From positions 1 to 64,000 of the forward strand of contig JAJJLU010000350.1 of NCBI GenBank assembly GCA_023807065.1: DNA of 64,000 bases. Direction: 5' to 3'. A model generated the notes under the pieces. The model was not told the DNA's origin. It searched no databases and worked only from the letters and a program-made list of their open reading frames with translations. Origin of the DNA: Isotricha intestinalis. Lineage: Eukaryota > Ciliophora > Litostomatea > Vestibuliferida > Isotrichidae. The translations under genes and the position numbers were made by a program. Shown piece by piece: positions 27,916 to 34,622 of this stretch. The first letter of the stretch is position 1. Each line of letters begins with the position of its first letter.

Positions 27916-29382
27916 TTAATATAGAGGATTATTATTAATGTAATTTCTATTTAAATTTGGATTATTCATTAAATTATCTCTTTGTAAATTATTATTATTA
28001 GAAATATTAGGAGTATTAATTGGCTCTTGGGTAATAGGATTAAATGATTGATTATTATTAATAGGAGTCTTATTTTTCAAATCAGAAAAATTTTGAATTG
28101 GTTGTAAAGTAATTGGATTAAATTTTTGGTTATTATTATTATCATTATTTGAATTTTGTCCTCTTCTATTAAAAAACCCTTTAAAATCTTCTTGAGGATT
28201 ATTTTGGTTATTATTGTTATATTCATTTCTATTCAAATTATTTTGATAATTATTTTGTTGATAATTATTATTTTGATTGAAATTATTATTATTATTAAAT
28301 TGGGGTTGGTAATTATTATTATTGTTTCTAATTTGATTAACATTATTTTGATAATTATTATTATAATTTTGGCTTATTTCATTGAAAGCATTTATTCTAT
28401 TATTGTTTCTATTATTTATATAATTTAAATATTCTTCTCCTTGACTCATATTTCTATTATTTTGATTGAAATTAATGTTTCCTTTTTCATTGTTATTAAA
28501 TGTATCATTGTTAAGGTTATTCCAATTATTCCCTTTAATTTTTTCATAATTAAAATTGTTATTTGGTTGATAATTATTGTTTAAATTAGTATTTGGTTGA
28601 TAATTATTGTTTAAATTAGTATTTGGTTGATAATTATTGTTTAAATTGTTATTTAGTTGATAATTAGTATTTGGTTGATAATTATTATTTAAATTATTAT
28701 TTAGTTGATAATTATTGTTTGGTTGATTGTTATTATTTAAGTTGTTATTTGTTAGATAATTATTATTGAAATCATTGCTCAGTTGATAATTATTATTGAA
28801 ATCATTATTTGGTTGATAATTATTATTAAAATTGTTATTTGGTTGATAATTATTATTGAAATCATTATTTAGTTGATAATTATTATTTAAAATGTTATTT
28901 GGTTGATAATTATTGTTTACATTATTATTTGTTTGATAAATTTGCCTTCTACTTAAATTATTTTGTGGATAATTATTAAAGTTATTGTTTTGTTGATAAT
29001 TATTATTAAAATTATTGTTTGGTTGATAATTATTATTTTGATTATTAAAATTCATATTTCCGTTTTGAGGATTATTATAACAATTTATATTATTATTTTG
29101 AATATTATCATATGAATTATTCCCCATTCTATTATTATTTCCAAAATTTATATTATTATTTTGAAAATTCCTATTCATCATATTATTTCTTGGTTGATTA
29201 TAAAAGTCTTGATTATTATTATTTGATTTAGGTTTTTCATCTTCTAATCCCCAACCTAAACTAAAAGTAGTTTTTCCACCAGGAGGATTAATTCTTTTTA
29301 CACTCGATCTATCATTTTCAATGTTGTCTAAATATCTTGCATTTGTATTTTGAATTTTATCAATTAATCTTCCTTTGTCCAT
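27916..29382 (-). CDS. Asn-rich protein with Jupiter/SPIRAL1-like PPGG motif
   Basis: A 488-residue protein. Only the ends look conserved. Residues about 26-46 read SSVKRINPPGGKTTFSLGWG, which matches the R-x-x-PPGG-x-x-x-(F)SLG motif of Jupiter/HN1 and resembles plant SPIRAL1, both microtubule-associated proteins. Near the C-terminus two copies of FNPITxxPI occur (KFNPITLQPIQ; SFNPITQEPIN), like the NPITG motifs of the same proteins. Everything between is Asn/Tyr/Gln repeat, largely a 10-residue NNNYQPNNNF unit. It is probably a microtubule-associated or disordered scaffold protein. The motif-based call is moderate. Confidence 0.6.
   Translation of the reverse strand: MDKGRLIDKIQNTNARYLDNIENDRSSVKRINPPGGKTTFSLGWGLEDEKPKSNNNNQDFYNQPRNNMMNRNFQNNNINFGNNNRMGNNSYDNIQNNNINCYNNPQNGNMNFNNQNNNYQPNNNFNNNYQQNNNFNNYPQNNLSRRQIYQTNNNVNNNYQPNNILNNNYQLNNDFNNNYQPNNNFNNNYQPNNDFNNNYQLSNDFNNNYLTNNNLNNNNQPNNNYQLNNNLNNNYQPNTNYQLNNNLNNNYQPNTNLNNNYQPNTNLNNNYQPNNNFNYEKIKGNNWNNLNNDTFNNNEKGNINFNQNNRNMSQGEEYLNYINNRNNNRINAFNEISQNYNNNYQNNVNQIRNNNNNYQPQFNNNNNFNQNNNYQQNNYQNNLNRNEYNNNNQNNPQEDFKGFFNRRGQNSNNDNNNNQKFNPITLQPIQNFSDLKNKTPINNNQSFNPITQEPINTPNISNNNNLQRDNLMNNPNLNRNYINNNPLY
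28555..29045 (-). repeat. 30-nt coding tandem array (NNNYQPNNxF)
   Basis: The plus strand shows TTTGGTTGATAATTATTGTT-type units with a basic 30-base period. Around 28560-28640 several successive units are nearly identical (coding YQPNTNLNNN). Further out they diverge (QLNN, QPNND, LTNN). Recent unit duplication is likely near 28570-28690. Confidence 0.85.
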
Positions 29383-30036: not shown

Positions 30037-30555
30037 ATGTCAAAAGTTCTTTACTTTTCCCTTTTAATAGTTTTATCAGCATCAGCTTCATTATCAAGAT
30101 TTGAAGATGTACTTTTAATGGCAAAAAAATCAGGTGATATGTCAAAATATTTAAAACCAACAAAAAATTGTCAAGTAAACGACAAATCTATTCAAAGTAA
30201 AGCAAAAAGTTTATCAAGTGGAAGTGAACGTGAAAAAGCAGAAAAAATATTTCATTTTGTTCAAAGACAAATTCCATATGAAAGATATTCAAATTCAAGA
30301 TATGGTGCAGTTAGAACATTAAAAAGAGGAAAAGGAAATTGTTGTGATCAAGCTCATTTATTAGTTGCTTTATTCCGTGCTGCTGGTCTTCCTGCTAGAT
30401 ACTTACATGGAAATGATCATTGGTGGACTGATGTTTATGTTGGTGGAAAATGGTATCCTTGTGATCCTACTAATCAAAGACATCAATTCGGAAAACCTGA
30501 TCATAAAGGAAAACAACCTAAAAATCCTTCTATCCATATATCCTTAGATCATTAA
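30037..30555 (+). CDS. Secreted pseudomurein-endoisopeptidase-like enzyme, copy 1
   Basis: A 172-residue protein with a signal peptide (1-18, VLYFSLLIVLSASAS), a short linker and a transglutaminase-like catalytic domain. YLKPTKNCQV (38-47) and RYGAVRTLKRGKGNCCDQAH (88-107), then FRAAGLPARYLHG, match the C-terminal domain of methanogen pseudomurein endoisopeptidases (PeiW/PeiP, MEROPS C71) and Methanobrevibacter adhesin-like proteins. Triad: C102 (GNC), H128 (NDHWWTD), D143 (CDPT). These enzymes cut the Ala-Lys isopeptide bond of pseudomurein; activity here is inferred. It lacks pseudomurein-binding repeats. C103 replaces the usual Val, and HWW replaces HVW. The most likely origin is lateral transfer from a methanogen, with a eukaryotic signal peptide added. 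Confidence 0.82.
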   Translation: MSKVLYFSLLIVLSASASLSRFEDVLLMAKKSGDMSKYLKPTKNCQVNDKSIQSKAKSLSSGSEREKAEKIFHFVQRQIPYERYSNSRYGAVRTLKRGKGNCCDQAHLLVALFRAAGLPARYLHGNDHWWTDVYVGGKWYPCDPTNQRHQFGKPDHKGKQPKNPSIHISLDH

Positions 30556-30942
30556 AATATTTTTTTTAATAGTAAAATTTTAAATTTGTAAAAAAATAAT
30601 TTTATATTCATCCTTAACAAAAAAGATATAATATTTAATATTTCATATTTCACTAATCCTTTATATATTTTATTTGAATAAGAAAAAGAGAAATTTAAGA
30701 AAGAATTAAGAGCTTAAATTTTTTAATGAAAATTATTAATATTTATCAAAATAAATAAAATTTTTATTCTTAGATTAATAGAAAATGTAAATCTTATAAA
30801 TATGTTATCAATTATCTTCTATTAATTTTTCAATACTTATTATTTATTTTTGATAATGATGTTTTAAAAATTTAATTTATTCAAATAAAAATTCATATCA
30901 ATTATATAAATATTTATTCAATTAATTAAATAAATTATAAAA
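30556..30942. other. Spacer between peptidase copies 1 and 2
   Basis: 387 bases of A/T-rich sequence with no coding frame. The last 45 bases contain TTATATAAATATTTATTC, a probable promoter element for copy 2. Confidence 0.5.
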
Positions 30943-31455
30943 ATGACAAAATTCCTTATTTTTTCTGTTGTAATAGTACTATCAACATCAGCATCATTAA
31001 ATAGTATAGAAGATGTAGTATTAATGGCAAAAAATGATATGTCAAAATATTTAAAAGCAACAAGAAATTGTGAAGTATCTCATTCTTCAATTAAAAAGAA
31101 GGAAGAGAGTTTAACAAAAGGTTCAAGAACAATTCGTCAAAAAGCAGAGAATATATATAATTTTGTAAAAAAGAATATAAAATATGAGAGATATGCAAAT
31201 TCAAAATATGGTGCAGTAAAAACATTATTAAAAGGACAAGGAAATTGTTGTGATCAAGCACATCTTCTTGTTGCTCTTTTACGTTCTGCTCAAATTCCTG
31301 CTAGATATGTTCATGGAAAAGGACATGTTTGGGCTGAAGGTTATGTTGATAATAAATGGGCTCATTTAGATCCTACAAATCAAAAACATGGATTTGATAA
31401 ACCTTATAGTCATAAAAACGATAAAACTACAAAACATGATACTTTACCTTTTTAA
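30943..31455 (+). CDS. Secreted pseudomurein-endoisopeptidase-like enzyme, copy 2
   Basis: A 170-residue tandem paralogue of copy 1, in the same direction. Signal peptide 1-18 (FLIFSVVIVLSTSAS), then an IEDVVLMAKNDMSKYLK leader nearly the same as copy 1 and ATRNCEV. The catalytic core keeps all three residues: C102 in GQGNCCDQAHLL, H128 in GKGHVWAEGY, D143 in HLDPTNQ. LRSAQIPARYVHG is the usual structural motif before the His. The HVW motif is closer to methanogen enzymes than copy 1. The C-terminus (HGFDKPYSHKNDK) has lost the NW-containing end seen in copy 3. It is predicted active and secreted or phagosomal. Substrate is inferred from family only. Confidence 0.82.
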   Translation: MTKFLIFSVVIVLSTSASLNSIEDVVLMAKNDMSKYLKATRNCEVSHSSIKKKEESLTKGSRTIRQKAENIYNFVKKNIKYERYANSKYGAVKTLLKGQGNCCDQAHLLVALLRSAQIPARYVHGKGHVWAEGYVDNKWAHLDPTNQKHGFDKPYSHKNDKTTKHDTLPF

Positions 31456-31805
31456 ATTTTTAAATGTTTTTTTATTTATTTTGAAATAAAAAGGAAATTA
31501 ATATTAAGATATTAACACTTTATTTTTTTTAAATTTTTAAAGTCACTTAAATTTATTAGATTTGGTATTATAAAAATAATAATTCTTTTTATTATTGTTA
31601 TTTTCTGGAAATTAATAATTAAATGTTAAAAAAAAAAATTATGAACCTATACATGGAATTTATAATTTTTTAAAAAAATGAAATTAATATTAAATATTAA
31701 AAAAAATTATTTAAATAAATGATTCATTGAAAAAAATTAATTGTAAAATAATATAAAATAAAATTATTTTTAATAATTTTAATTGTTTTCACTGAATATT
31801 ACAAT
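31456..31805. other. Spacer before the decayed copy
   Basis: 350 bases, A/T-rich with T and A runs. No frame of interest. Confidence 0.5.
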
Positions 31806-32220
31806 ATGGAAAAAGAGATTAATGATATATTAATTCCATGTGATGATTCTTCATATTTAAAAGAGACAAAAATTTGTGAAATATTAATTTTATTAAAAAA
31901 AAAAATCATAGGAATTAAGAAGAGGAATAATAGTAAAACGTAAAAAAGTTGAGAAAACTTTTTTTGTTAGAGAGAGATATAATTAAATTTAAAAAATAAC
32001 TAAATACAAAATTAAGTGAAATAAAAACATTAAAGAAAAAAAAGAAAATTATTGCGATCAATCAAATTTATTATTTCTCTTTTAAGAGCTGCTAAACTTC
32101 TATTACATATCAAAATTGAAAATGAACTTATGCTAATCATTTATACAAACATGTTTGATTTCTTGTGTTGATTGAAATGGGATGTTTTACCCCCTTCTTC
32201 TAAAAAAATGAATATGATAT
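31806..32220 (+). pseudogene. Decayed fourth peptidase copy
   Basis: Fragments align in order with copies 1-3 but in shifting frames. An ATG at 31806 opens a 45-codon frame containing SSYLKETKICEI (compare SKYLKATRNCEV). VEKTFFVRERYN (compare AEKIFHFVQRQ) follows from about 31949. ENYCDQSNLL at about 32047-32072 corresponds to GNCCDQAHLL. LLRAAKLLLHI lies one frame over, and WDVLPPSSKKM at about 32178-32212 corresponds to WHDLDPTSSKN of copy 3. Stops (31941, 31984, 31990) and at least two indels break it. The catalytic Cys position is Tyr. No signal peptide is recognisable. It is a non-functional relic, evidence of past expansion and loss. Confidence 0.75.
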
Positions 32221-32406
32221 AATAATAATTGAATTAGTCAAAGAAAATTAACAATTCTACAGAATCACCTTTTTAAATTATTTTAATTTTCTTTATATTT
32301 TCTCTTGATGAAAAATGAATTAATCATTTTAAAAAGTATATCTTTGATATTTTTAAAAGATTTGTTTCAATAAATTTGAAATAATAATATATGAAAGAAA
32401 ATAAAT

Positions 32407-33654
32407 TTAGAATTTTATATTATTCAAAATGTCTGCAATTTTATTTGTAATAGCAGCAATTAATATTTTTTTATTATTCATATTAAATTGATATTCCTTA
32501 TTATTATTATTCAGATCAGGAATTTCATTAATTGGATTATAAGGATCTCTAACATTTTTTCTATATTTATTACATGCACTAACACATTCAGGATCATCTT
32601 TGCATTTTTGAACTTCTTCAATAAAACTTCCACCTAAAAATCCACCTCTATAATTGACACAATAATCATCATAATTTTTAGATATAGAAACTCCTTCAAT
32701 ATAATGGAATAATATAAATCTTAAACCTACAGCTTAAGCAATTCCCATTCTTATAGAGCATTCATTTGGAACCACATTGTAATATTTGAAATGTATTTAC
32801 TTGGTGTCCTGGTTTATCTATTAATTCTACTATTCTATCTCTTGTTTCTAAATCAAATCCTCTATGTTTTAATGCATCAATTTGATATGTTTCTGTAGCA
32901 AGAATTATTGTATGATGATTTAAAAATGTTTGAAAAATTGGAAAATATTTTTCATAATATTTGGGGAATGCTTGTCTATTATAATTAGCGTATTCTTTAA
33001 ATTTTTCAAGAACTTTATTAGCATTTAAATTAAGAATTGAATGTAAATTCTGATAAAATTTAGCTATTAAAGACTTTTGAATTATTTCTAATTCAGCTAA
33101 AGTAAATCCTCTTCTTTCATATCTATGTTTATTTTTACAAATTTTAAAGAATAAAATATAATGACAATCTTCATATTGAATTACATTATATTGATAAATT
33201 ACTTTTCCACTTGTATCACCTTTAATATAAGCAAAATAAAGAAATTTTTCATCTAATCTTGTTGCAATTCCGAATACATTTTCAATTTTAGTTTTTGTTT
33301 TTTCATGATAATAATTAAAATTTTCATAACCAACATTACTATTACTATATTTAATTGATTTAAATTGCAAGATTATTTTTTCTGGGAAATTATGTGTTCT
33401 TCTTAGTGAATCTATTTCAGAAAAAAGAATTTTATCAAATATAACTGAAGTTGAACTTGTTAAATCAGTTACATATTTTTCATATTCTTTAGGATAGCCT
33501 TTAAATAAATCTTTATTAACTAATTTTTTAATCCTTTAATAAGTTTTTGTTTTGCTTCTTCTTTTGAAATAAGAAGATTCGGAATTATATGTCTTTCTGA
33601 TGATGCAAATGTTATTGATATAATAATGAGTAATAAGGAAATTAGATTTTTCAT
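32407..33654 (-). pseudogene. Disrupted gene for a secreted protein of unknown family
   Basis: An ATG at 33652-33654 opens a signal peptide (NLISLLLIIISITFASS) that runs 39 residues to a TAG. Adding one base in the run AAAGG near 33537 would restore the frame into KKLVNKDLFKGYPKEYEKYV, which continues through about 250 residues to a TGA at 32762-32764. A one-base shift near 32778 continues as VVPNECSIRMGIA, a TAA at 32734-32736, then a Cys-containing tail (DDYCVNYRGGFLGG; CKDDPECVSACNKYRKN) to a final TAA at 32407-32409. So there are two frameshifts and one nonsense codon (CAA to TAA would explain it). No known domain. It is either a pseudogene or, less likely, a stretch with clustered sequencing errors. 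Confidence 0.65.
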
Positions 33655-34088
33655 TTTTTTATAAAAATTTTTTTTTTCAATAAGCTAGATATTTCTTTTT
33701 ATTTTTTTATTTTTTTTATCAAAATAAATTAAAATAATTCTTTTTTTAATTCTTAAATATTTATAAAAGTAAAAACTATTTCTATTAATATCAAAAAATA
33801 TCAATATATTTTTATTTAATAAAACTTGTTCAAAATATTGCATTTTTTTCTTAAAAAACTTTAGGAACAAATTCTAATGAAGAATAATTATGTTTTTATT
33901 GGTTTTTAATTTTTATTTTTCTTATAAATAAAAATCATAATTTAAAATAAAAAAATTATACTTATTATTGAATTCATTGAATATAAAAAATTACAAAAAT
34001 TAAATTAAAAAATTTATATCCAAATTATAATAATAAATAAATCAATTTATTATAAATAGTAATTATTTAAAATAATCATAAAGAAAAA
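33655..34088. other. Divergent region between the disrupted gene and peptidase copy 3
   Basis: 434 bases, A/T-rich. It contains the element at 34044-34059. A 61-codon frame on the minus strand (33685-33870) is Lys/Ile/Phe-only in character and not credible as a gene. Confidence 0.5.
34044..34059 (+). promoter_or_regulatory. Shared TATA-like element, peptidase copy 3
   Basis: AATTTATTATAAATAG, identical to 29990-30005 and placed 29 bases before the ATG at 34089. It is either a conserved core promoter carried along by duplication or a common TATA-type element of this genome. Confidence 0.45.
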
Positions 34089-34622
34089 ATGAAAAATTTA
34101 ATAATCTTTGGATTTTTAATAGTATTTGCATTAAGTCAAAAAGATAAGAAAGAAGAAAACTTAGCTCAATTTTTAAAAGCAACAAAGAATTGTGAAGCCG
34201 GTGATGAAAAATTTAAAAAATTAGTATTAAACTTAACAAATGGAGTAAATGATACATATAATAAAACAAATAAGATTTTTAAATATGTAAGAGACAAAGT
34301 AAAATATAAAGTATATTCAGGTACAAAATTAGGAGCATTAGCAACATTAACTAAACTTCAAGGAAATGCAGTTGATCAAACTCATTTATTAATTGCTTTA
34401 TTAAGAACTGCTGGAATTCCAGCAAGATATAAAACTGAAATTGTTAGCTTAAGATTCGGTACTTTAGGTCATGTTTGGACTGAAGCTTATTTCAAAGGAA
34501 AAGGTGATTCTCAAGATAAATGGCATGATTTAGATCCTACTTCCTCTAAAAATACTTTGGAAAAAATTGCCAACTGGAAAAAATTAAAAAAAGGAAAAAC
34601 TTCAGCTCAATATACTCTTTAA
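34089..34622 (+). CDS. Peptidase-family copy 3 with catalytic Cys replaced by Ala
   Basis: 177 residues. Signal peptide 1-16 (NLIIFGFLIVFALS), then FLKATKNCEAGDEKFKKL. The core is the most methanogen-like of the set in its second half: LGHVWTEAYFKGK, KWHDLDPTSSKNTLEKIANW. H128 and D149 of the triad are present. The nucleophile site reads LQGNAVDQTHLL, with GCA (Ala94) where relatives have GNC. The rest of the fold (LLRTAGIPARY) is intact with no stop or frameshift, so the gene looks maintained although peptidase activity should be lost. A binding, decoy or regulatory role is possible. It is also the only copy with Val after the nucleophile site, as in the methanogen proteins. Confidence 0.8.
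   Translation: MKNLIIFGFLIVFALSQKDKKEENLAQFLKATKNCEAGDEKFKKLVLNLTNGVNDTYNKTNKIFKYVRDKVKYKVYSGTKLGALATLTKLQGNAVDQTHLLIALLRTAGIPARYKTEIVSLRFGTLGHVWTEAYFKGKGDSQDKWHDLDPTSSKNTLEKIANWKKLKKGKTSAQYTL

Follow-up and report, generated by a model that had tools for sequence, protein, structure and literature searches.

A family of small, apparently secreted transglutaminase-fold proteins in a ciliate genome and its relatives among methanogen wall proteins

The TG gene cluster and its family

The analyzed stretch, hereafter the window, comprises the first 64,000 nucleotides of contig JAJJLU010000350.1 (C150) in the 57.3 Mb, 2,153-contig assembly GCA_023807065.1 of Isotricha intestinalis, and contains a cluster of genes for small, apparently secreted proteins with the transglutaminase fold, here called TG1, TG2 and TG3. 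TG1 (30037..30555, plus strand; 172 amino acids, aa) and TG2 (30943..31455, plus strand; 170 aa) lie in tandem and are 61% identical over 154 residues. TG3 (34089..34622, plus strand; 177 aa) is 38% identical to TG2. The assignments are based on open reading frames (ORFs), Pfam matches and catalytic columns, for TG2 also on hydropathy. Between TG2 and TG3 a relic of a fourth copy was detected (31764..32260, plus strand), most similar to the intact relative P0008. One of its stop-to-stop frames (31752-31940) scored 29.2 bits against the family profile, and tblastn pieces across the whole interval matched P0008 (E 7.6e-10) with shifts of frame and in-frame stops. ORF, Pfam, profile and tblastn evidence agreed with the initial annotation, which had placed three intact genes and one relic here. 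It had also claimed a signal peptide for each intact copy, and all three proteins indeed begin with a short charged end followed by a hydrophobic 9-mer (mean hydropathy 2.8 to 3.5), our signal-peptide-like calls being a crude hydropathy measure. By this measure the putative signals occupy positions 30037..30090 in TG1 (MSKVLYFSLLIVLSASAS), 30943..30996 in TG2, where confidence of the structure model is low at residues 1-3 and 11-17, and 34089..34139 in TG3, all on the plus strand.

Domain searches assigned the three proteins to Transglut_core (PF01841; 76.5, 81.9 and 70.8 bits for TG1, TG2 and TG3, cut-off 23), the only family above its cut-off. The C71 family (PF12386) reached 13.9 bits in TG2, under the curated cut-off of 22, and was not listed for TG1 or TG3 at E up to 1; C71 was therefore rejected as their formal family. 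No PF12386 match was found genome-wide, an uninformative result since all 14 control genomes were silent too. Pseudomurein-binding repeats (PMBR, PF09373) were not listed in TG1–TG3 at E up to 1, and the genome-wide search for them found none, with the 14 control genomes equally silent. The TG proteins have the fold of the catalytic domain of PeiW and PeiP (predicted local distance difference test score, pLDDT, of the TG2 model 88), and VIA-align structure comparison put this fold near animal transglutaminases.

In TG1 and TG2, C102, H128 and D143 (TG2 numbering) fall into the columns of the Cys-His-Asp triad of PeiP, the codon of the predicted catalytic Cys102 of TG1 being 30340-30342 (plus strand). 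TG3 keeps the His and the Asp and has Ala in place of the Cys (codon 34368-34370, plus strand), so it lacks the triad and is probably a pseudoenzyme. The ordered motifs noted earlier were found in the copies, except that the third reads GNA and not GNC; with the loss of its cysteine, activity of this copy as an enzyme is not supported. In the motif and catalytic-column comparisons, the minus-strand references L003, L005 and L006 were used without the first Met.

Instead of the four copies recognized at first, the duplicated family has at least eight members on five contigs of the same genome. They are single-domain proteins of 138-182 aa, with a signal-peptide-like start in seven of the eight and an intact triad in most copies. 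TG2, L003 and L006 end in LPF; TG1 and TG3 end otherwise. Replacement of Cys by Ala was seen in two independent lineages, TG3 and L006, with the other active-site residues intact, and also in the relatives P0005, P0009 and P0014. Proteins such as L004:1480-1896, P0029 and P0030 (about 138-142 aa) form a subfamily with the full triad and no signal-peptide-like start, which may be either cytosolic or missing its first exon in the prediction. Beyond the family, the genome has 28 or more Transglut_core domains (36 with the family). These 28 places, among them C150:80953-81246, form a second, larger expansion distinct from the short secreted family; the seven proteins scanned are long, all have the domain near the C-terminus, and six of the seven passed the DUF553 cut-off.

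Host genome, relatives and origin

The genome is a litostome-type ciliate nuclear genome, in accordance with the earlier reading of the window. CCCCAAT telomere repeats opened 10 of 19 contig starts sampled, and this telomere has been reported for the litostome ciliates Entodinium (PMC6211341) and Muniziella (PMC11316547). In the window, which has about 18% guanine plus cytosine and long open frames under the standard code, Pfam identified genes for ribosomal L28e, an S8-family ribosomal protein of S15a length, an EF-hand protein, ARMC9, a Pumilio-type protein, an ABC transporter, PP2C, a protein kinase with EF hands and a four-RRM protein with an MLLE domain (poly(A)-binding-like). The five TG-bearing contigs, inspected at their starts, showed no telomere there, so the TG genes are tied to the ciliate by their neighbors. 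These are ARMC9 and Pumilio on C150 and C1321, a kinase-like protein 35% identical to the window kinase on C911, a protein resembling the RING-type protein of the window on C1461, and other long frames on C282. The codon use of the TG genes is that of the ciliate.

These data bear on the possibility that the TG genes belong to an ordinary ciliate transglutaminase-like family resembling methanogen proteins by fold only, or that they are archaeal contamination. The other Transglut_core domains of the genome would fit an ordinary family, but the eight members scored 189-284 bits against the family profile versus 31-55 bits for 13 of the 28 other loci, and 11 of the latter formed a separate clade (support 100 in the first of the two trees described below). 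Contamination would require an assembly chimeric at five contigs, and the neighbors, telomeres and codon use are the ciliate's. On profile scores, separate clade and genomic context we reject both explanations as extremely improbable.

Searching 5.8 billion proteins with the family profile yielded 215 hits, the best 120 of which were listed. The top ones are short proteins of the same kind, most with a signal-peptide-like start and one (P0006) 99% identical to TG2; next come Methanobrevibacter and Methanobacterium proteins, some of which have PMBR and C71 domains in precomputed annotations, and no named eukaryote occurs among the 120 listed of the 215. Forty-two 'ciliate-like' proteins were picked by eye from the 120, a label resting on likeness and place in the tree. 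The GTDB scan (one genome per species, 84,980 prokaryote species; E-values relative) required the motif [GA]N[CA][CV]D[QK][ATS]H[LA], so that conservation of its columns in the methanogen rows is partly by construction, with His128, Asp143 and Cys43 unaffected. It gave 121 relatives, and the best 80 of them, which were kept, comprise 79 archaeal proteins (77 named Methanobacteriales) and one from Riflebacteria (P0072), where the same domain is joined to PG_binding_1. Record titles of many archaeal relatives name ruminant or other gut samples. One relative was present among 38 pattern matches in viral_contigs, and seven phage records matched TG2.

Most prokaryotic relatives are large, and the domain forms their C-terminal part. 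Among 59 prokaryotic and phage ORFs scanned out of 87 available (86 and the ORF of Methanobacterium virus Drs3, itself within the 59), all 59 had the transglutaminase core, 44 had PMBR and 10 also had C71 (E below 0.001). The TG proteins of the window, with a single domain in 170-177 aa, are devoid of the stalk, anchor and PMBR of methanogen wall proteins, which agrees with the earlier proposal that wall-binding repeats had been removed. The last residue is Phe in 84 of 85 methanogen-type relatives (LPF in 28, ISF in 27); the Riflebacteria protein is counted both in these 85, 80 of whose domains entered the catalytic-column comparison and the tree pool, and in the 80 kept.

The closest counterparts, the transglutaminase-type adhesin-like proteins of Methanobacteriales (L029-L108), resemble the ciliate proteins in the catalytic domain (39-53% identical to TG2), the YLKxTKNC start, the C-H-D columns and the C-terminal LPF or ISF (55 of 85), but are mostly 400-1388 aa long with Ig-like and PMBR domains. 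This architecture agrees with that of the group III adhesin-like proteins reported from M. smithii and M. stadtmanae (PMC11532034). ORF_00035 of Drs3 shares this catalytic domain with TG2 (37% identity over residues 31-170) but is a phage gene located after the tail genes, and its 300-aa product is extended at the N-terminus by a part annotated as repeats that bind pseudomurein. Identity between PeiP and TG2 is 20%, and PeiP and a related virus protein matched the TG family profile weakly (63 columns, probability 71). Judged by sequence, PeiW and PeiP, described as having four PMBR each (PMC2989375), are remoter cousins of the TG proteins. N-terminal pseudomurein-binding repeats are usual in the C71 family, though two proteins of M. 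smithii have been reported to lack them (PMC2989375). Another protein compared, 3ISR, a putative cysteine protease of Cytophaga hutchinsonii, differs in being bacterial and 293 aa long. The methanogen-type C71 domain of the initial annotation was thus borne out as methanogen-type, the relatives being Methanobacteriales, and not as C71.

Two trees were built. The first, quick one was rooted on a long own-genome branch and split the ciliate rows (TG3 with P0014 apart), beside the methanogens. The second, which has a bacterial-type outgroup (8 of 52 rows) and which we trust more, left out the 11 other own-genome domains, P0090, P0101, P0114, P0115, P0119, P0120 and rows more than 68% identical to a kept row; its bootstrap was unsettled and several forks were weak. 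In this tree, the methanogen, phage, Riflebacteria and ciliate rows formed one group (100/99) apart from the outgroup, the catalytic domain being closer to Methanobacteriales wall proteins than to other transglutaminases. The 14 ciliate and ciliate-like rows made one clade (95/79), whose nearest neighbors were the Drs3 protein with P0092 (88/72) and then the Riflebacteria row (93/85). Setting the ciliates outside and the 30 other ingroup rows together cost 6.65 log-likelihood units (p-AU 0.296 in the approximately unbiased, AU, test). The placement inside Methanobacteriales predicted at the outset is therefore that of the best tree without being significant, and a ciliate clade nested among sequences of methanogens and phages is favored, not proven. 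These comparisons give good support to a capture from methanogens or from viruses of methanogens, and the direction from methanogen to ciliate is suggested by the broad distribution in Methanobacteriales, by the absence of a named eukaryote among the listed hits and by the wall-binding architecture of the methanogen relatives.

Predicted activity and biological role

As far as sequence comparison goes, the TG family is a eukaryotic branch of a family of methanogen wall enzymes, secreted and stripped of modules. Its best reading, which we put forward with moderate confidence, is that of secreted pseudomurein-peptide hydrolases for digesting ingested methanogens. The donor may have been a methanogen that an ancestor had ingested, or a virus of methanogens. 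The captured domain would then have shed its Ig-like stalk and wall-binding repeats and received a eukaryotic signal peptide, and copies of the gene would have accumulated. The protein would enter the secretory route and reach food vacuoles. There His128 and Asp143 would activate Cys102 to cut an (iso)peptide bond in the peptide that cross-links pseudomurein, and swallowed methanogens would lyse and be digested, as bacteria are by lysozymes. Since the vacuole confines enzyme and prey together, the wall-binding domain could be dispensable. Cys-to-Ala members such as TG3 might act as non-cleaving binders or regulators. PeiW and PeiP are reported to cleave pseudomurein with this triad at the Ala-epsilon-Lys isopeptide bond, for which they require reducing conditions and a divalent metal (PMC4592898, PMC2989375). 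A similar role, opening the walls of ingested prokaryotes, has been proposed for the lysozymes encoded by GH24 and GH25 transcripts of Entodinium caudatum, which differ in being unrelated glycosidases against bacterial murein (PMC6925433).

Some of the evidence weighs against pseudomurein hydrolysis after capture from methanogens. The AU test does not reject a sister position of the ciliates, which excludes a firm nesting inside Methanobacteriales; methanogen transglutaminases have been proposed to build pseudomurein cross-links (PMC2812497, PMC11915815); and the Riflebacteria protein with its peptidoglycan-binding domain makes bacterial murein a real alternative. By the last of these, a domain from methanogens or their viruses would now cleave the peptides that cross-link bacterial murein, or peptides from food generally, with vacuolar digestion kept. 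Besides the place of P0072 beside the ciliate clade, the absence of pseudomurein-specific repeats from the window proteins and the description of E. caudatum as strongly bacterivorous, with many lysozyme transcripts (PMC6925433), argue for such a substrate. The archaeal origin of 79 of the 80 kept prokaryotic loci argues against it, as does the methanogen-like C-terminus, though this is common to the Riflebacteria protein too. We regard a bacterial or general food substrate as possible but rather improbable.

The proposed cross-linking by the methanogen transglutaminase group (PMC11915815), together with Transglut_core as the sole family above its cut-off and the likeness to animal transglutaminases, could also point to a secreted transglutaminase that forms gamma-glutamyl-lysine bonds in proteins of the ciliate's own surface, mucus or cysts. 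This seems unlikely for a single small domain whose triad is able to hydrolyze in PeiW and PeiP (PMC4592898). The ratios of nonsynonymous to synonymous change (dN/dS), about 0.74-0.94 for four TG pairs versus 0.11-0.26 for three neighbor pairs between C150 and C1321 (simple Nei-Gojobori counts on very AT-rich genes, with synonymous change probably underestimated), are easier to reconcile with a role in feeding or conflict than with a structural role. Cutting is favored over cross-linking because a ciliate has no pseudomurein to build. Quite unlikely as well, in our view, is an action on living partners, in which the enzyme would regulate, harvest or expel endosymbiotic methanogens and digest no prey. 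Methanogens do associate with rumen ciliates, some intracellular ones being perhaps continually replaced via ingestion (PMC7058926), and the inactive-looking paralogues TG3 and L006 could be binding or modulating forms.

In wider terms, the family may be an 'archaeal lysozyme' of rumen-type ciliates, a secreted, fast-changing family with conserved inactive paralogues that opens pseudomurein and derives from a wall enzyme of a methanogen or its virus; we consider this broader proposal about as likely as not. The open-licence literature searched yielded no description of a eukaryotic pseudomurein-active enzyme or of the TG family in a eukaryote, and we know of no other eukaryotic system attacking archaeal cell walls. 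If the digestion of methanogens holds true, it would be the first known eukaryotic attack on archaeal walls and would give ciliates a molecular tool for feeding on methane producers or managing them. It would further provide a clear case of a wall enzyme passing from archaea, or an archaeal virus, into a eukaryote, with domain stripping and re-targeting visible. The main text of the E. caudatum transcriptome paper, which reports lysozymes, does not contain the word 'transglutaminase' (PMC6925433). It has been suggested that 9-37% of rumen methanogenesis is due to methanogens that live in association with rumen protozoa (PMC10284877), and whether ciliates eat, replace or keep methanogens is described as hard to tell (PMC7058926, PMC6079354). 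The TG genes, if they act as proposed, would offer a testable gene for this question and a new source of anti-methanogen enzymes.

The duplicate segment and neighboring genes

Contig C1321 duplicates a part of the window in collinear order (21117-51183 versus L133, L127 and L134). Identity between the two by BLASTP is 92.5% for the poly(A)-binding-like protein, 86.0% for Pumilio, 90.0% for ARMC9, and 75.6% and 85.2% for two more genes. In both segments the TG genes lie between ARMC9 and Pumilio with a gene for a 418-aa protein among them, and since they hold the same place the TG cluster probably predates the parting of the segments. The TG genes are only 40-54% identical across the two, and their synonymous change (dS, 0.42-0.53) is larger than that of the neighbor pairs (0.19-0.25), so they look like older paralogues that survived differentially rather than one-to-one duplicates. 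The two segments may stem from duplication, of the genome or of a segment, or from the pooling of two species in one assembly.

The 418-aa gene is unrelated to the TG genes. Its intact copy (L003:106-1362) lies between two TG genes on C1321, and a broken copy follows the relic in the window (32410..33594, minus strand; tblastn). Nine homologues were found; a Pfam search at E up to 0.01 gave no match. Another neighbor of the cluster, at 27916-29382, encodes an Asn-rich repetitive protein of 488 aa, whose counterpart was not seen in the C1321 segment by BLASTP comparison with the low-complexity filter on. For the S8-family ribosomal protein, no ciliate was named among the 120 matches listed of 5,695. 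A UniRef uS8 entry labelled yak (P0130, Bos mutus grunniens; 194 aa) was 65% identical by BLASTP and outscored the query's own identical protein (291 versus 277 bits), an oddity that perhaps reflects a composite entry.

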